A stretch of DNA of 31,392 nucleotides from a virus (IMGVR_UViG_3300006805_000100:1-31392), one strand, 5' to 3'; numbered from the stretch's first letter, positions 4,265-30,623 are shown. Program-made: numbers and translations. Notes: generated by a model not told the origin, from the sequence alone.

Positions 4265-5410
4265 TTAAAATCCTTTCCAGTTGATTATCGGCTTGAGATG
4301 CTTGACGATCTCAATGCTCTCCTTCTGGTTCTCCATTACCTCGGAGATGTTCTTGTAGGCATTCGGGCTTTCATCTATCACCTTCTGAACTACCGGGGCG
4401 ACAATGCCTTCCATCTGTTCTTTGAAAGTCTCCATGGTGATCTCCTTTCGTGCTTTCCCACGACTCATAAGGCGACCCGCGCCATGTGAAGAGCTGTTGA
4501 GAAACTCTGGGTTTCCCTTGCCTATAACAAGGAAGCAACCATCTCGCATGTTTGCCGGGATAACTCCCCTCTCACCTTCGTTAGAAGTAGTGGCTCCTTT
4601 GCGATGAATGTAGGTGCCATCTGGCTCTAATACGCAGTGGTTATGGTTCTTATTCGTCCAGAGGTTTTTGTCCACATCAAATTTATAGCCAACAATCCTC
4701 TCTATCGCATTGGAAACACGGATAGCCATGTCCATGCGGTTCATGAGCGCGAAGTCCAGACAGTAGTTTTGATACGCCATGTATCTCTTCACTTCTTCAC
4801 CCTTGAGTACATGCGTCTCTTCAAATCCCTTCTCTTTTCCAGACGCAGTCTTCATAAAGTGAGTCCCGATGTAGTGACCTACTCCGCGAGAGCCACTGTG
4901 AATGACAAGCCAGGTTTCATTCTCGTAAGTGAGAATCTCTATGAAGTGATTTCCTGATCCAAGCGTTCCAAGATTTCGGTTAGTGATTTTCAGAACATGC
5001 TTCAGAAGCTCGTCTTCTTCCACATTGAAAGCCAGCTCATTCTTTGCTATTCCCATGCAGGACATTGTTCTTACTTGTATATCCTCTTCTCGCTTGTTGA
5101 ATACTCCGGCTCCCATTGGAACATCTCTGTTCACTTGGTGAAATATCTCCGTAGCCTTATCCTTTATTTTGTTTTGGATCTCCTGGTCTTCTGATATAAG
5201 CACAGCAATCATGCCGCAACCAATGTCATACCCAACCCAGGCTGGCACCACTGCGTCTTTGGTTCTGAGTACTGATCCAATAGGTGCAACATACCCAGTG
5301 TGTGTATCCGGCATGAGCGCTCCCTCAATAACGAACTCTTGATTGACACAGCTTTCGAATTGCTCAAGAGCTTCTGGTTCTATATTTTCTGCATGTATGT
5401 ATTTCTTCAT
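4265..5410 (-). CDS. rtcB: RtcB-type RNA ligase
   Basis: RtcB joins RNA ends carrying 2',3'-cyclic phosphate or 3'-phosphate to 5'-hydroxyl ends with GTP and Mn2+, as in tRNA splicing and repair. The family motifs are all visible in order: MPDTHTGYVAPIG, GYDIGCGM (metal-binding Cys), GTLGSGNHFIE, HSGSRGVGH, NHNHCV, HRKGAT and SSSHGAGRLMSR (the guanylylated His), ending INWKGF. The start is the Met of MKKYIHAEN, four bases after the upstream stop; a longer frame begins 13 codons earlier inside that gene. The protein would have about 381 residues, a normal length. Its likely job in a phage is repair of tRNAs cut by host defence nucleases (inference). Confidence 0.92.
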   Translation of the reverse strand: MKKYIHAENIEPEALEQFESCVNQEFVIEGALMPDTHTGYVAPIGSVLRTKDAVVPAWVGYDIGCGMIAVLISEDQEIQNKIKDKATEIFHQVNRDVPMGAGVFNKREEDIQVRTMSCMGIAKNELAFNVEEDELLKHVLKITNRNLGTLGSGNHFIEILTYENETWLVIHSGSRGVGHYIGTHFMKTASGKEKGFEETHVLKGEEVKRYMAYQNYCLDFALMNRMDMAIRVSNAIERIVGYKFDVDKNLWTNKNHNHCVLEPDGTYIHRKGATTSNEGERGVIPANMRDGCFLVIGKGNPEFLNSSSHGAGRLMSRGKARKEITMETFKEQMEGIVAPVVQKVIDESPNAYKNISEVMENQKESIEIVKHLKPIINWKGF

Positions 5411-5414
5411 ATTC

Positions 5415-5645
5415 TTATTCTGATTTTGCTTTCTTGTAGCCAGCTTCATAAGCTCCCGTCAAAGCAGTTCGCATAGCAACAACAGCTTTAGCATCCAAGT
5501 CTAGAATGGTAGTATTTTTTTCTTCTTGACTTATTTTTCCAAAAATTCCATTGACGATTGTTTGTATAGCATCGTTTGTATAGTCTTCCAAAATTGCATC
5601 AAGCTTTTTTACCCTCTTTTCAATATCAAGTTTTTTCTCTTGCAT
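5415..5645 (-). CDS. Small coiled-coil protein, 76 residues
   Basis: Starts MQEKKLDIEKRVKKLD and ends GAYEAGYKKAKSE. It is helical and highly charged, with no recognised family. The start was chosen after the stop of the 50-codon gene at 5659; a longer frame opening at 5753 would overlap that gene fully. It lies four bases before rtcB. Confidence 0.6.
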   Translation of the reverse strand: MQEKKLDIEKRVKKLDAILEDYTNDAIQTIVNGIFGKISQEEKNTTILDLDAKAVVAMRTALTGAYEAGYKKAKSE

Positions 5646-5998: not shown

Positions 5999-6199
5999 TT
6001 AATCCCGAGTTATTTTCTTTGGATTCTCTGGGTGTTCGTGTGCTATTCGCACTGGGCAATCAGGAGTACATCCCTTTTTATCTTCAATGTCATCCCCAAC
6101 AAGTATTCCGATCACATAGCCTCCGAAATGCTTAGATGCTTCAAATCCTTTTCCATTTGGGAACATGTTTCTTACCTTGTATTCGATTCTTTTTTTCAT
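5999..6199 (-). CDS. Small protein with a Cys pair, 66 residues
   Basis: Begins MKKRIEYKVRNMFPNGKGFE and carries GCTPDCPVRIAHEH near residues 43-56, a possible single metal site (two Cys, two His). It overlaps the methyltransferase gene upstream by four bases (ATGA). No family recognised. Confidence 0.6.
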   Translation of the reverse strand: MKKRIEYKVRNMFPNGKGFEASKHFGGYVIGILVGDDIEDKKGCTPDCPVRIAHEHPENPKKITRD

Positions 6200-6733
6200 A
6201 GTTCAATATCATTTTCTAACTCATTACCCCACACATCCCAACCCTCTTTTTTTTCTCTAGCAAATAACTCTATTCGTGGGAGGTCGCCCATGAGTTCAAC
6301 AATTCTCTTCCTTACCTCGTCTGGCTTTTTTGAGTGAGTTGTTCTTTCCGCTTCTACTAGCTGTTGAATGTTTTTTGTGATTCTCTGAGGCTTTCCTTTC
6401 CTTCCTAATAAACAGAGCTCAACATTTCCCATTGTCCACCTACCGAGGTTTTTCACTTTCTTACCGCTTTTGTGGTTTTTGCTCCAGCAAAATGCTACTG
6501 TCACATATTTGAACCCCCATGCCTTCATTACCTCTAAAGCTTCTGGAAGTAAGGGAGAGGTCGCCCATAGGAATAAAACGCAATCTTTATCCTGTATTGC
6601 CCCCCCCCCGCAGAAGATTAGCTATCCAATCTTTCCCTTGAGTAGGGTAATGAGTCTCTGCCCCTTGGTGTCCTATCATTTTGTCGTTGTAACTCCAAGG
6701 TGGATCAGCGTAGATAATCTTATACTTCTTCAT
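6196..6733 (-). CDS. MT-A70-type adenine methyltransferase, interrupted at a run of ten G
   Basis: S-adenosylmethionine-dependent N6-adenine methyltransferase. The N-terminal frame starts MKKYKIIYADPPW; DPPW is the catalytic motif of the family. As given, this frame stops after 48 codons (TAA at 6587-6589), just past ten G at 6600-6609. The other frame carries the rest: DKDCVLFLWATSPLLPEALE, YVTVAFCWSK and a typical C-terminus through ELFAREKKEGWDVWG. Removing one G joins the frames into 178 codons, a normal family length. Either the tract switches the gene on and off by slippage or the read has one G too many. The start follows the upstream stop by one base. Likely role: protecting phage DNA or altering host methylation. 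Confidence 0.85.
6600..6609. repeat. Run of ten C (ten G on the coding strand)
   Basis: A homopolymer of ten inside the MT-A70 gene, at a place where the protein would read Gly-Gly between two conserved motifs. The number of bases is one more than needed for an open frame (nine or twelve would be open). No other G or C run of this length is seen in the window. Confidence 0.95.
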
Positions 6734-7068: not shown

Positions 7069-7737
7069 TTACTTGACAACTTTTTTGGTTATAAGTGTTT
7101 TAACATTCACTTTATATTTTTTTGCAACTTCGTAGATCACCATCGAGTCTTTCTTTAGGGAAGATACATGCTCTACGAGAAAGTCAATCCTTTTTTCTAC
7201 TTCTTCGATAGTCTCAAACTCTTCGATTGGATCTTCATCAAGGTCGTATTTCAGAATAAAGTTCACTGCTTTCGCTCCAACAATTTTGTAATCTTCTTCT
7301 GGAGTCAAACTAGAACCTCTCATGCCATCCTCATAAGTGACATAAACCGTTCCATCGCTGTCTATACCTTTAATGATTCCAAATTTTCCTTTATTTGGTT
7401 GTTCTTCTGCTGGCAGAACACAAATATTCTGAACTCTATTTCCTATCTTAAATTTCACTGCTTTTTTCTTTTTTGAGGTTGTGCTAGTCTTCTTCACAAT
7501 TTTCTTTTTTCTTTCTCTAATAACTACACCCTTCTGGAACATAGAATCTGTCCAATTCCAACCTTCCTCTTTAATCCGGTATTTGTCTGTGACGCTCGCT
7601 ATGGTCACTATTTGACCTGCCAATGCTACCATTTCAGAAGTAGTTGAGTCAGTCTTTCCACTGACTGAATCCTTGTAAATTTTGCCCACCTTCAGGTTCC
7701 TAATAACCCTTACTCTGTCTCCTTCTTTAAATTTCAT
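7069..7737 (-). CDS. Protein with two SH3/KOW-like domains
   Basis: Two small beta-barrel-like repeats are seen: [19 protein letters not shown] with [15 protein letters not shown] (residues 3-55), and [13 protein letters not shown] with [22 protein letters not shown] (near 95-140). They are joined by a Lys-rich linker. The C-terminal third is helical. Such barrels bind nucleic acid or protein partners; the target cannot be read from the sequence. It overlaps the channel gene by ATGA, so it is probably made together with the envelope cassette, though it looks cytoplasmic. Confidence 0.6.
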
Positions 7738-8087
7738 ACTCGTTCCGCTATTTTAGTTAATAAATTTTTTATCTGTTCCTGTTCCTCATGTGAGAACTCA
7801 TTTCTATCCGGACTGAGAATGGTGATCATTTTAGCGATCAGCATTGGCAGTATCAGAAACGCCATTACTATCATGAGTGTCATTGCAACTATTCTCCCCC
7901 CTACTGTTACCGGATACATATCTCCATATCCGACTGTCATAGAAGTCACTACAGCCCACCAAATGGAATCAAACCAACCTTTTCCCTCAAAGAATCCGTA
8001 GACAAAAGAGGAGGCTACAATGAGTCCGAAGTAATAAGCCATGAGCTCCATCACTGAATCTGTACACTTGTAGAATATTTTTTTCAT
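7734..8087 (-). CDS. Two-transmembrane potassium channel
   Basis: The product has two membrane helices ([16 protein letters not shown] near residues 18-33 and [25 protein letters not shown] near 64-88) around a pore loop with the selectivity filter [18 protein letters not shown] is the classic K+ filter, so four copies would form a K+-selective pore. A short charged C-terminal helix follows, with no ligand-binding domain. At 117 residues it is a minimal channel. It overlaps the ATP-grasp gene by ATGA and ends an envelope cassette. Potassium channels are known next to YgiC/YjfC-type ligases in bacterial genomes, which supports a shared role. Confidence 0.9.
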
Positions 8088-9214
8088 ACGATTATATGAG
8101 GTATAAACTGACTCGTGTTATCTGTTACCAAGCCCGCACATTCCCTGATACCCATTCCCGCCGCTTCGCCTCCTACTACCCAGCTACCAAGAATTGGTGT
8201 TTTTCCTTCTACTGAAACATCTATGAACTTCTGGTAGACAGCTTCACTTTCATCGTAGGAACCATCGGTCATAGTGAGTAATTCCCCATGCTCGGTTTTT
8301 CTTACGATTACGATGTTCTGTCCTTCGCGAGAAAGTTTCGGCTTCTTCACATAATCACCTGCTAAAGGTTCAAAACTGGCTTCTAGCAGATACTTATGAT
8401 TTGGGTACAGCTCCCAGAGAATCGGAAGAATAGCTTTGTTTGAAAGAAGCATCTTCCAAATTGGCTCTATCCACTTCATCTCTTTGTAAGCTTCCAAGAG
8501 GTTGTCAGCGAACTCCTCCTCTACCATCCATTCCCATGGGTAAAGCTTGAAGATGTTCTTGATCTCTTTGTCCTCTAGGTCAACGAATTTCCCCTCTAGC
8601 CAACCGATTTGATCCATCATCAGACCTTCTGTCACTGTCCCTGCTTCCTCTGCGGTGTCGCGCATGTAAGTCACATTCATGAAATCTTCATGAGCTGACT
8701 CGTATGAGTGCACGAAGTACAGTGTCGGAAAGGTAAGAATTTCATCCCATTTTTTGACCAGCCTCTCGTGTATAGAGTTGAACTGATCAGCCTTTGGAAA
8801 AACTTCTTCTTTCCATAGCCATTGAATGACCGATGCTTCCAAGAGGGATGTTGGCGTGTCTGCGTTGTACTCCAACATCTTTATTTCCCGGTTCTTGTAA
8901 GCAAGATCAAACCTTCCGTACACTGATGTCTCCTGCTCGTTTTCAAATGACCACTTTATCAAAGGAACAAATTTCTCTGGAATGCAGAACTGATGAAAAA
9001 GGTTTTCTTTAATCACATGCTCTGCCGCTTTCATGCACATCTCATGCAATTCATTAGTAGCCTCTTCAATCTCATCTATTTCTTCCATAGAGAACTGGTA
9101 GTACTCTGACTCATTCCAGTAAGGCCTCCCATCTGGAGTAGTGTTGTAAACCAGTCCCAAATCTTCAACCTTCTTCTCCCAATTTTCTCGTGGTGCAATT
9201 GATATCTTTTTCAT
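8084..9214 (-). CDS. Glutathionylspermidine synthase-like ATP-grasp ligase (YgiC/YjfC type)
   Basis: An ATP-dependent C-N ligase of the family containing the synthetase half of GspS. Family signatures are clear: [13 protein letters not shown] near residue 115, [14 protein letters not shown] near 286, and the C-terminal [20 protein letters not shown] plus FIPHIIV. The amidase domain of full GspS is absent, as in YgiC and YjfC, whose substrates are not known. The protein has 376 residues, a normal length. It lies directly after a YgiB-like lipoprotein gene and before a K+ channel gene, a neighbourhood known in bacteria for this ligase. It probably attaches an amine or peptide to an acidic partner (inference). 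Confidence 0.9.
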
Positions 9215-9216
9215 AC

Positions 9217-9558
9217 TTATGATCCGCTTGAGTGTGAACCTGCTGAGCTACCAAACCCTCCTCGTGCTGCCGGAGATGAAACTTTTCCAGTACTTGGTGC
9301 ACTAGGAGACCCTCCTGTTAGGTGACTACCGACTGCATGGTTGTTGATTCCTCCCATGTAGTAATAGTGGTAAGGGAATAGTACGGGCATAACTCCGCCA
9401 TTTGATGCCTTCCCCTCATCACAGAGCTTGCTATCAACTACTTCGTCTTTGTCATTGACGCAGTATTCTGTTGAATCACCCTGGCTCTGGGAGGAGCAAC
9501 CCGCTAGAAAGAAGGCTGCTCCAATGGTGAGAGGGATTTTGTAAAATATCCCTTTCAT
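9217..9558 (-). CDS. YgiB-like (DUF1190) lipoprotein
   Basis: A lipoprotein signal peptide ends in LAGC-SS (Cys near residue 21). The mature part has the YgiB pattern: YCVNDKDEVVDSKLC, an aromatic stretch PYHYYYMGG and a C-terminal tail SSPAARGGFGSSAGSHSSGS. In E. coli, YgiB is encoded with the ATP-grasp protein YgiC, and the same pairing is seen here two bases downstream. The Gly/Ser tail could be the acceptor for ligation (inference). It is 113 residues, shorter than usual. It should be anchored in a membrane facing outward. Confidence 0.85.
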   Translation of the reverse strand: MKGIFYKIPLTIGAAFFLAGCSSQSQGDSTEYCVNDKDEVVDSKLCDEGKASNGGVMPVLFPYHYYYMGGINNHAVGSHLTGGSPSAPSTGKVSSPAARGGFGSSAGSHSSGS

Positions 9559-9560
9559 AA

Positions 9561-10130
9561 CTAGAACTGTACTTTGGCTCCTTTTTCTGCACCTGATTCA
9601 GCTTTGAAGAGAGTTTTCTTTTCGAAGCCAAATGTCTTAGCAAACAAACTCTTTGGGAATCTTTGAATATTCGTGTTGTAGTTATTTGCTGTCGTGTTGT
9701 ACTGGTCGCGAGCCTTCAAAATCCCATCTTCTGTGCCACGCAGTTGATTCATCAAATCTTGAACTTGCTGGTTGGACTTCAAGTCTGGGTATGCTTCTTG
9801 CAATCTTGGTAGCAAGGCGATTACCTGGCTTTCAATGTTGCTTGCGGCCTCTGCTTTCTGGTTGTCAGTAGCATTAGAGCTTTGGAACATTTGTCGAGAT
9901 TCTGCAATCTTTCCAAACACTTCTTGCTCTTGCTTCTGAGCACCTTTCACGCTCTCAACCAAGTTTCCAATGAGGTCTAGGCGGCGCTGGTACTGTGTTT
10001 CTACCATGCTCCATGACTTCTCTACTTGGTTGCGGCTGGAAACTAAGCTGTTGTAGTTTCCGATGAACCAAAATACTACGAAGGCTATTAAGCCGAGTAC
10101 AATGGCTAGGGTTGTTGCTGTCTTAGACAT
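9561..10130 (-). CDS. lemA: LemA family membrane protein
   Basis: The N-terminus has a membrane segment (TLAIVLGLIAFVVFWFIG, residues 7-24) followed by YNSLVSSRNQVEKSWSMVETQYQRR and DLIGNLVESVKG, the standard LemA opening. A long coiled-coil with an ARDQYNTTANNYNTNIQRFP segment near residue 140 and the end FGFEKKTLFKAE complete the family pattern. The length is 189 residues, normal. LemA proteins are membrane-bound, of uncertain role, and have been linked to envelope stress. The gene overlaps its upstream neighbour by eight bases and ends two bases before the YgiB-like gene. Confidence 0.92.
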   Translation of the reverse strand: MSKTATTLAIVLGLIAFVVFWFIGNYNSLVSSRNQVEKSWSMVETQYQRRLDLIGNLVESVKGAQKQEQEVFGKIAESRQMFQSSNATDNQKAEAASNIESQVIALLPRLQEAYPDLKSNQQVQDLMNQLRGTEDGILKARDQYNTTANNYNTNIQRFPKSLFAKTFGFEKKTLFKAESGAEKGAKVQF

Positions 10131-10731
10131 ACACTTTTTTATTAGTTCGTTTATTTACCCACCACACTAATCCGCCTCCAATCCCACCTACCAAAAGGAT
10201 CATGACAATCCAGTTAAAAATGAGTAATCCGTCCACTCCCTCGTCCTCAATAATCACTGTCTTCTCGGTTCCATCTGGTTCTGTCACCACTGCTTCTTGA
10301 TTTTTTACATTCTCCCGGTGACTCATAGAAAAAATGTAGAGCCAAGGCAGGTAGTCAACAAAACTGGCATTTCTCTGCACATACTGAACTGTTGATCCTG
10401 CTGGCGGTGTGTAACCACCTTTTATTTTTGGCTTGAATTTGTCATCCACTACACTTGCCTTTCCAGTTGTTTTCTTACCACTGCTAGTAGTTTTTACTGG
10501 AGCGTCAACTGTCTTTGTTGCCGCAGTAGGCTTGCTGGAGGTTTTGGCTGGTGCTGGAGTGGATTTCTTGGTATATGTACCACCAGAAGATCCGCTTTTT
10601 GCTGAACTCGTTGATCGTGAGCTACTAGAAGACTTGAAACTGCTTCCACTGCTCCGACTTGAGCTTCCTTTAGCCTCTACCATTGCTGGAGCGATGAGAG
10701 CTACCATCAAAATGATTGCTAAATATTTCAT
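10123..10731 (-). CDS. Exported Ser/Thr/Lys-rich protein with C-terminal membrane anchor
   Basis: An N-terminal signal peptide (MKYLAIILMVALIAPAMVEA) precedes a low-complexity region of Ser, Thr and Lys to about residue 90. Residues 168-191 form a membrane helix (LLIFNWIVMILLVGGIGGGLVWW) with a basic end (NKRTNKK). The repetitive part should be outside the cytoplasm. Similar Ser-rich proteins are found beside lemA genes, but no named family is certain. It overlaps lemA by eight bases and the replication gene by ATGA. It is the first gene of the envelope cassette and could serve as its structural or modified partner (inference). Confidence 0.75.
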   Translation of the reverse strand: MKYLAIILMVALIAPAMVEAKGSSSRSSGSSFKSSSSSRSTSSAKSGSSGGTYTKKSTPAPAKTSSKPTAATKTVDAPVKTTSSGKKTTGKASVVDDKFKPKIKGGYTPPAGSTVQYVQRNASFVDYLPWLYIFSMSHRENVKNQEAVVTEPDGTEKTVIIEDEGVDGLLIFNWIVMILLVGGIGGGLVWWVNKRTNKKVYV

Positions 10732-11492
10732 AATTTCTTATCAGTTATTCTCTTTCTGAAATCCTTGTATCCTGGCACCTGACTTATATCCTTTCCCCCC
10801 TCCGCCTGGGGAGGAGATTTCGACCTATGGATATTGGCCACCGCCACCTGTAACTCTGCTTGCCTAACTCTTTCCTGTTTTTGTTTTTCTGTGAGAAGTC
10901 CATAATCTTTCTTTAGCGCATTTTCCAAGAATGCTTTGTAGTTTTTATAGACCTTCCCTTTCGCCAAGCAATAATTTCTCAAATCATTTGCTTTTCCTTG
11001 AATATCTTCTTTTGAAGCATTATATTTTTCATGAAGTTCAGAGAGAGTCTGTTCGGGTACATTATCCAGAAATGATACGGAGGCTTCGGGTCTCTTCTCT
11101 TCTCTTCTCTTCTTATCTCTTCTCTTCTCTTCTAGGGGGATATTGTCAGGAGGTTGTCCGGACACTCTCCGGAGTTTCGCTGTGTATTCGTCAGCGTATC
11201 TTGCCATCTTTGGGATGTATAAATCCCCTCTACTAAGCGCTTTTTTATCTATTAATCCTGTCTCAGCAAATTTCTTCAAAAGAGTTTCTATCTTTTCTTG
11301 GTCAATTCTTGACACATCTTGTAACTCATTTTTCCAGTTTTTTTTCGCTTTTATTCGAAAATTTTCGCTTTGTTCACCAACTAATTCCAAACAGATCCAG
11401 TAAAAGCCATATCCTTCAGTCCCAAATTCTCTGAGAATGGCCTTCAAATCTAGGTTGTTTCTGGCGTTGGTGTGATGTTTTAACCACTTCAT
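10728..11492 (-). CDS. Replication initiator-like protein (DnaD/Lin1244-type N-terminus)
   Basis: The start is the Met of MKWLKHHTNARNNLD, five bases after the upstream stop; a longer frame opens 33 codons earlier inside that gene. The segment LDLKAILREFGTEGYGFYWICLELVGEQ matches the first domain of phage replisome organisers of the Lin1244/Lin1753 kind, followed by a winged-helix-like region. A basic linker near residues 126-138, encoded by a repetitive purine-rich stretch at 11090-11140, precedes a helical C-terminal domain (SFLDNVPEQTLSELHEKY through YKAFLENALKKDYGLL) reminiscent of DnaD. Such proteins bind the origin and help load a helicase. It overlaps the next gene by ATGA. Confidence 0.75.
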   Translation of the reverse strand: MKWLKHHTNARNNLDLKAILREFGTEGYGFYWICLELVGEQSENFRIKAKKNWKNELQDVSRIDQEKIETLLKKFAETGLIDKKALSRGDLYIPKMARYADEYTAKLRRVSGQPPDNIPLEEKRRDKKRREEKRPEASVSFLDNVPEQTLSELHEKYNASKEDIQGKANDLRNYCLAKGKVYKNYKAFLENALKKDYGLLTEKQKQERVRQAELQVAVANIHRSKSPPQAEGGKDISQVPGYKDFRKRITDKKL

Positions 11493-11496
11493 ATTT

Positions 11497-11757
11497 TTAA
11501 TAGCTATGTAGGTAAGCCTCAAACTTCTTTTCTGGTTTTGAATGGCAATGTTCACATTCCTCTCTTCCATCCCACCAGTACCAGTCACCAAACTTCACCA
11601 CTTCAACCCGCTTTAATTCGTATGCAATATCTTTTATAAATTCTTTATCTGTATCACCAATTTGTTTTGCGATAGCTCTTGCGGCGCTCTCAAAACTTGC
11701 GTAACCAATAGCAAGGGCCTGGTCAGAATCTTCAAAATTTATTACCTCTCTTTTCAT
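11497..11757 (-). CDS. Unknown small protein, 86 residues
   Basis: Contains an aromatic WYWWDG segment near residue 60 followed by CEHCHSKP, a single CxxCH pair that could be half of a metal site. The N-terminal half is helical (ALAIGYASFESAARAIAKQIG). No family recognised. ATGA overlap with the gene upstream and five bases from the replication gene. Confidence 0.6.
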   Translation of the reverse strand: MKREVINFEDSDQALAIGYASFESAARAIAKQIGDTDKEFIKDIAYELKRVEVVKFGDWYWWDGREECEHCHSKPEKKFEAYLHSY

Positions 11758-13149: not shown

Positions 13150-13172
13150 ATCATTTTTGTTTCTTGGTAATG

Positions 13173-13244
13173 CTGGCTAGGTAGGATTCGAACCTACGAC
13201 CCCCTCGTTAACAGCGAGACGCTCTACCACTGAGCTACTAACCA
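13173..13244 (-). tRNA. tRNA-Asn (anticodon GTT)
   Basis: Full cloverleaf on the minus strand: acceptor stem TGGTTAG with CTAGCCA (one G-T pair), D-arm GCTC-AGTGGTA-GAGC, anticodon loop CTGTTAA with GTT, five-base variable loop and T-arm GTAGG-TTCGAAT-CCTAC. The 3' CCA is not encoded. It directly follows the large structured region. Confidence 0.95.
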
Positions 13245-29987: not shown

Positions 29988-30623
29988 CTAGTCAAAACTT
30001 AGCGGATCAGAAGGGCTGGTTCTTTGGTCGGTGTCTGGTGGAATAGCGAATGCAAGCTCTTGGTCGTTTTTCTGTTTATCAGACTTCATTCGTTCGATAA
30101 GGAATTGTGAGCGCTCTAAGAACTGCTGCGCGTCTTCCAGTGGGTCAGTCTCCGCAAGACGAATGTCAGCGTATGCTCTTGCCCACACAGCTTCCGGCTC
30201 AGGGATGATGCAAACGTCTGTAGTCGCACTCATTGGGCTTACTCGGTATGGGTAGAAAAGAATGTAATCCCCATCAACTGGCACGTTCAAAACATAGCCA
30301 TCGAAGAAGTTCCCGGTAATCCAGTAATAGAGCCCTGACATTCCTACTGACTGGTCTTGTGATATAAGATTCAGTGGAACACCAGATGTAGTGGTTATTC
30401 GGTCAAAATAACGAAAATTTGCCCCGAGCGAGTAGATTCCAGAAGCAACAGTCACTTGTTCTTTCTTTACAACTTCTAGCTCTCCTGCCGCATACTCTTG
30501 GGCGCGATTAAGAAGCCTCGTCCAATAGCCGAGTGTGCCTGTATTAGTTGTAAGATTTCCTCCGTCATGCTGGTCAGCAATAGATTGGAGTAGATCCTGT
30601 AATGTGGCTTTCGCGTATGCCAT
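29988..30623 (-). CDS. Head-tail adaptor-like protein (P22 gp4 / T7 gp11 type)
   Basis: 211 residues. ATLQDLLQSIADQHDGGNLTTNTGTLGYWTRLLNRAQEYAAGEL is the usual start of head-to-tail adaptor proteins, which bind the portal ring. Then a beta region (VDGDYILFYPYRVSPMSATT) and a helical section (DPLEDAQQFLERSQFLIERMKSD). Size and position right before the stabilisation protein gene support it. Starts after AAAAATAAAAAATT, no Shine-Dalgarno. Confidence 0.7.
   Translation of the reverse strand: MAYAKATLQDLLQSIADQHDGGNLTTNTGTLGYWTRLLNRAQEYAAGELEVVKKEQVTVASGIYSLGANFRYFDRITTTSGVPLNLISQDQSVGMSGLYYWITGNFFDGYVLNVPVDGDYILFYPYRVSPMSATTDVCIIPEPEAVWARAYADIRLAETDPLEDAQQFLERSQFLIERMKSDKQKNDQELAFAIPPDTDQRTSPSDPLSFD

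Follow-up and report, generated by a model that had tools for sequence, protein, structure and literature searches.

A phage gene run that appears to combine a YgiB-YgiC-type lipoprotein and ligase pair with a LemA and potassium channel set

ATP-grasp ligases of the YgiC type are already known, as is the reaction they catalyze. In E. coli, YgiC and YjfC were reported in 2023 to be peptide-spermidine ligases (PMID 36745518, as cited in PMC12568646), and in bacteria the ligase shares operons with ion channels and with DUF350 and DUF1190 proteins (Ravi et al., PMC11237479). Reports of such ligases in phages go back to at least 2006 (PMC1524935; PMC5587285). Here we describe a five-gene run in IMGVR_UViG_3300006805_000100:1-31392, a viral sequence of 31,392 bases that makes up an entire IMG/VR record (the window). 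Judged from its sequence, this run appears to join two phage modules, a YgiB-YgiC lipoprotein-ligase pair and a set made up of a Ser-rich membrane protein (SERR), a LemA-family protein and a small K+ channel. New in the literature searched are the rule for the lipoprotein tail in phages and bacteria, the SERR-LemA-channel module, and the presence of both modules in one phage.

All five open reading frames (ORFs) lie on the minus strand at 7734-10731 and run in one direction, with neighbours overlapping by 8 or 4 bases or separated by a 2-base gap. The initial annotation, made from the sequence alone, had proposed five tightly coupled genes here, and the ORFs, the Pfam matches and the lipobox and tail of the lipoprotein bear this out. 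The features, including two short elements (TM, transmembrane), are as follows:

10123..10731, minus strand: SERR, Ser-rich exported membrane protein, 202 amino acids (ORF, hydropathy)
9561..10130, minus strand: LemA-family protein, 189 amino acids (Pfam PF04011, E=1.1e-45)
9217..9558, minus strand: YgiB-like lipoprotein, 113 amino acids, lipobox LAGC, C-terminal tail RGGFGSSAGSHSSGS (ORF, alignment, tail statistics)
9220..9264, minus strand: codons for the conserved tail of the lipoprotein (RGGFG ... GS), proposed to supply the motif recognized by the ligase and the acceptor end
8084..9214, minus strand: YgiC-type acid-amine (peptide-polyamine) ligase, ATP-grasp, 376 amino acids (PF03738, E=5.8e-141)
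7734..8087, minus strand: two-TM K+ channel subunit, 117 amino acids (PF07885, E=5e-13; phrog_14690, E=2.9e-39)
7920..7937, minus strand: selectivity filter TVGYGD of the K+ channel (sequence)

The identity of these parts is near certain from sequence comparison; SERR and the lipoprotein matched no Pfam family. The ligase carries a full-length GSP_synth domain (PF03738 positions 1-371). Its nearest solved structures by sequence are YgiC (7uk8, E=3.5e-83) and then YjfC (7uk6), both well ahead of glutathionylspermidine synthetase/amidase (GspSA), and its predicted model, with a predicted local distance difference test score (pLDDT) of 92, has 7uk6, 7uk8 and 7uka as nearest folds (TM-score 0.87-0.94). 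In the alignment with GspSA, residues R316, D318, E330 and N332 correspond to R100, D102, E114 and N116 of the window enzyme, and K498, K533, R538 and R598 to K259, K290, R295 and R356. These eight positions, which we take to be the catalytic and ATP- and Mg-binding residues of GspSA, are retained in the window enzyme and do not vary in an 11-sequence alignment. The window enzyme is thus, with near certainty, a YgiC/YjfC-type acid-amine ligase, for which peptide-spermidine activity is predicted. The reaction had at first been listed as unknown, which no longer applies given the activity reported for the E. coli enzymes, whose structures are closest to that of the window protein; the amine tag suggested as its chemistry is likely to be right. 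A bifunctional GspSA identity was rejected: the 376-residue protein is the synthetase part only, without the N-terminal amidase domain of GspSA, and the GspSA loop DSASC is DTPTS.

The ligase gene is not intact in every record. In Aeromonas phage LAh_8 a stop codon breaks it, and in the viral contig L073 it is divided between two ORFs, so that it is either dispensable in some phages or affected by sequencing errors. A divergent ligase subgroup, with 24-28% identity, is found in other large phages, namely Pseudomonas phages Lu11, phiPMW and HRDY3 and Bacillus phages FADO and PJN02. The DNA of Delftia phage phiW-14 is putrescinylated. The authors of the phiPMW study report such a ligase in phiW-14 too (PMC5587285).

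The lipoprotein was named YgiB-like for its lipobox, its RGGFG tail and the position of its gene next to that of the ligase; it falls below the Pfam gathering threshold for DUF1190, which its LAh_9 and 44RR relatives pass. To compare such neighbours, ligase loci were scanned in 80 viral contigs, in cultured phages and in 80 bacterial genomes, taking as a tailed partner a same-strand ORF with the tail within 3 kb of the ligase. When aligned, the neighbours of the phage ligases proved to be lipoproteins with little in common beyond the lipobox and a C-terminal [RK]GGFG. A tailed YgiB-type ORF was present at 52 of the 72 non-redundant viral and 55 of the 74 non-redundant bacterial ligase loci. 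Among distinct proteins, the motif lay 7-14 residues from the C-terminus in 55/57 viral and 52/61 bacterial cases, and the last residue was Gly, Ser, Ala or Glu in 57/57 and 60/61, respectively, versus ~33% of control ORFs. The tail itself occurred in only 3 of 1748 control ORFs, a number that matches the three other channel loci with a ligase beside the tail. Because the motif was defined on sequences from the phage collection, the bacterial proteins test it independently. A nucleotide pattern for the RGGFG codons, applied to 150 genomes, was uninformative, its matches being no commoner than those of the reversed control.

Relatives of the ligase use the glycine carboxylate of glutathione, and here a conserved end with a small terminal residue adjoins the ligase. 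For these reasons the tail end of the YgiB-like lipoprotein is proposed as the ligase substrate, an assignment to which we give slightly better than even odds. Genes for polyamine synthesis occur close to some of the other phage ligases. In phage Motura, the lipoprotein-ligase pair directly follows a homospermidine synthase gene, and such a gene is also present upstream in a 424-kb contig (L063). AdoMet decarboxylase genes are found ~1.8 kb from the ligase in the contig of L070, ~2.4 kb from it in that of L077 and ~5 kb from it in that of L067; of 50 viral contigs with a ligase, 11 have such a gene.

Several points weigh against the lipoprotein tail as a polyamine acceptor. Its role as substrate is one that we infer from sequence, and the short Gly/Ser-rich end could instead serve export or assembly. 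YgiB is exported, whereas by hydropathy the ligase lacks both a signal and a TM segment, so that modification would need to precede export. At 20 of the 72 viral ligase loci there is no recognizable tailed partner, and DUF1190 has been described as a metal-chelating lipoprotein (Ravi et al., PMC11237479). No polyamine synthesis gene was recognized among the window genes scanned, and the AdoMet decarboxylase linked to such operons has been argued to act in a way that does not depend on polyamines (reference 89 of PMC11237479). The metal-chelating description and the phages that have a ligase but no recognizable tailed lipoprotein nearby would also suit a reading in which the ligase modifies another peptide (from the host, from the cell wall, or a free di- or tripeptide) or makes a small polyamine conjugate, with YgiB acting as a partner, metal binder or regulator. 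The family does include glutathionylspermidine and trypanothione synthetases, which use free tripeptides. However, the position of the tail and its terminal residue are conserved in phages and in many bacterial phyla, in ORFs adjoining the ligase, and the DSASC loop of GspSA is not kept in the window enzyme; we regard this reading as possible, if on the unlikely side.

The channel combines the TVGYGD filter with a TM-pore helix-TM arrangement and, by structure comparison, a KcsA-like fold; G53, Y54, G55 and D56 are invariant among 21 sequences. From sequence and model, it is near certain to be a KcsA-like two-TM K+ channel, and conduction is predicted. K+ channels of three architectures lie beside the ligase at eight non-redundant viral loci by strict filter match, namely the window, LAh_9, DSS3_VP1, L047, L073, L086, L097 and L204, and a ninth (L092) was found by profile only. 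The order in LAh_9 is channel-YgiB-YgiC; the DSS3_VP1 channel is larger, with a C-terminal domain, and that of L047 is of the voltage-channel type. This recurrent adjacency upholds the link between ligase and ion channel drawn in the initial annotation. DUF350 was present at 16 of the 72 viral ligase loci. The same adjacency, seen also in bacterial operons (PMC11237479), could mean that the polyamine-tailed lipoprotein is a tethered pore plug of the K+ channel, acting as free polyamines do in inward-rectifier (Kir) channels, for which block by polyamines is established (PMC4145359). The block of Kir channels comes from inside, whereas the lipoprotein tail would be outside the cytoplasm, and 64 of the 72 viral ligase loci have no nearby channel by the strict match, which makes such a plug quite improbable.

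By hydropathy, SERR has an N-terminal hydrophobic segment (residues 4-22) with a likely signal-peptidase site between VEA and KGSSS, and a single TM segment (166-184) with basic residues after it. The window LemA has a TM segment at 5-23 and then a helical LemA domain. SERR was found confidently in four viral contigs only, the window (with its twin, described below), L004, L186 and L201, and lies directly upstream of LemA each time; the small channel follows SERR-LemA in all three contigs that continue, including L004 and L201. L004 and L186 were reached via LemA, so that their LemA adjacency is by construction, and L201 via the channel; in searches with the SERR profile, SERR was never found without LemA. 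The contigs L004, L201 and L186, which may be fragments, contain no ligase, and it is because of them that two modules are proposed. LemA also stands beside YgiB-YgiC in two unrelated viral contigs, L069 (LemA-YgiB-YgiC) and L085 (YgiB-YgiC-DUF350-LemA), both of which came from a search using ligase sequences alone. The pieces of the cassette thus recur together in other phages, but the SERR-LemA-channel contigs lack the ligase.

The cassette had also been thought to have moved whole into a phage. No bacterial locus with all five genes was found, and LemA was within 5 kb of the ligase in 0/80 of the nearest bacterial ligase loci, although it is encoded elsewhere in 16 of 20 tested genomes of those bacteria; as a control, the LemA profile detected LemA in 18/18 bacterial LemA loci fetched. 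Among 299 Pseudomonadota genomes, the SERR search gave one borderline match (E=2.2e-4, 40 positions, internal stop), which was not accepted, and a search in Bacteroidota, run without a positive control, was empty. With LemA missing from these ligase loci and SERR confident only in phage contigs, a transfer of the whole cassette from bacteria is unsupported. The literature search for LemA with phage, or LemA with ligase and channel, found nothing relevant.

Two further observations concern SERR and LemA. In L201, SERR has three tandem Hint (intein-like) domains (L201:2488-4305), and in L004 it has one (L004:3419-4423). The last Hint domain ends HNKG just before the Ser-rich body, at the same point as the predicted cleavage site in the window, so Hint autocleavage may replace the signal peptide and give a similar SERR N-terminus. 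The window LemA matches phrog_1383 (E=6.7e-22), whose annotation is that of a virion structural protein; according to this annotation, LemA proteins of phages might belong to the virion.

The explanation that we prefer combines tail capping with a membrane set. In the first module, the YgiC-type ligase would, at the expense of ATP, couple spermidine or a similar polyamine through one of its amines to the carboxylate of a peptide, the natural peptide being the C-terminal end of the adjoining YgiB-like lipoprotein, recognized via [RK]GGFG. The lipoprotein would be modified before or during export and would then carry a polycationic tail at the membrane. In the second, the Ser-rich single-pass protein, LemA and the small KcsA-like channel would form a phage-specific membrane set, and both modules could serve to keep the envelope and membrane potential of the infected cell in shape until lysis. 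We put the probability of this explanation as a whole, as two merged modules, at about 0.5. The envelope or membrane-potential role taken by itself is evenly balanced in our estimate, and the cassette is, as first proposed, both phage-borne and envelope-related. A wider generalization, that phages and bacteria share polyamine capping of [RK]GGFG...G/S lipoproteins and that in some phages SERR-LemA-channel controls membrane potential, is speculative and rather unlikely as it stands.

In T4-like phages, the ligase is close to rIIA (ZZ1, Acj61) or rI (44RR), and in 44RR a band-7 protein is encoded in the same stretch as the ligase. This closeness hints at membrane and lysis control, and could be taken to mean that the set acts specifically in lysis timing or superinfection exclusion. 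Those T4-like regions are variable, however, and no such genes were recognized beside the window cassette, so that we consider this more specific function unlikely. Coupling to K+ flow and host takeover, which the initial annotation also suggested, are hypothetical. For the preferred explanation, the comparison of ~150 loci yields one concrete and cheaply testable substrate candidate for YgiC/YjfC, the C-terminal tail of the adjoining lipoprotein. If this is true, C-terminal polyamine capping of lipoproteins would be a modification common to bacteria and phages. Several unrelated virus groups pair K+ channels and envelope proteins with the ligase, which hints that management of the host membrane is selected during infection.

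The window encodes a terminase large subunit (309-1694) and an SU10-type adaptor (29988-30623). Among known terminases it resembles those of Bacteroidota phages most, with 45.7% identity to that of Bacteroides phage Versailles, so the host can reasonably be guessed to belong to the Bacteroidota. Each of the two outer cassette genes shares 4 bases with the phage gene that flanks it:

10728..11591, minus strand: Lin1244/replication-initiator-like phage gene (PF14297, E=1.3e-9; phrog_2562, replication initiation, E=2.9e-8)
7069..7737, minus strand: phage gene on the other side (phrog_7488, E=1e-9)

The cassette families are common in bacteria, and one ligase-bearing record of the phage collection (MD-2021a) clearly has the gene content of a bacterial contig, so contamination or assembly chimerism at the cassette borders, named at the outset as what could undo the proposal, had to be weighed. 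A second assembly, IMGVR_UViG_3300025896_000011 (38,488 bases), matches the window at 99.99% identity along 13 kb that include the cassette and its two borders, making an assembly chimera unlikely. Together with the overlapping flanking genes, a GC content of 43.6% in the cassette versus 42.8% in the whole window, and parallel arrangements in complete cultured phages, this contradicts such an origin, which we reject as highly improbable. An anti-phage defence reading was likewise rejected, as none of the five cassette proteins matched a PADLOC model. A scan for promoters and terminators gave matches no more frequent than chance expectation.

Elsewhere in the window, there are a phage RtcB-type RNA ligase gene (4265-5449; PF01139, E=1.5e-76), a lone tRNA-Asn (13172-13244) and a 110-residue ORF (6196-6528) that aligns with no more than the C-terminal portion of a DNA methyltransferase family (positions 187-297 of the 329 in phrog_359) and is possibly a broken gene. 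In the phage collection, two ligase-bearing records named Acinetobacter phage MD-2021a (CAKLQH020000026.1 and CAKLQF020000029.1) look like bacterial chromosome contigs, a labelling problem for which the gene content was seen in CAKLQH020000026.1.

Among described systems, the LemA-TPM operons of bacteria and some phages share only LemA with the window, where LemA has no TPM-domain partner and is flanked by the upstream Ser-rich TM protein and the YgiB-like lipoprotein. The PspA/CesT-Tir-linked operons (Ravi et al. 2024, PMC11237479) are closer in that they bring together ligase, DUF1190-type lipoprotein and K+ channel. However, PspA, CesT/Tir, DUF350 and DUF2491 were not found when the cassette proteins and five phage proteins encoded nearby were scanned. 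The window instead has LemA and SERR, and its channel consists of the two-TM pore alone, lacking a ligand-sensing domain. The phages 44RR and LAh_9 (Aeromonas), ZZ1 (Acinetobacter) and Motura (Achromobacter) all have the ligase near a tailed lipoprotein, and LAh_9 has a K+ channel adjacent as well; in this comparison, LemA and SERR are found only in the window, while Motura adds homospermidine synthase and DUF350. Compared with the E. coli YgiB-YgiC and YjfM-YjfC pairs, the window run is phage-borne, adds LemA, the Ser-rich protein and the small channel, and has a short lipoprotein without a Pfam DUF1190 match. Yet it resembles these pairs in the length, fold and catalytic residues of the ligase, and in the small lipoprotein, with its lipobox and RGGFG-type tail, encoded directly upstream of it.

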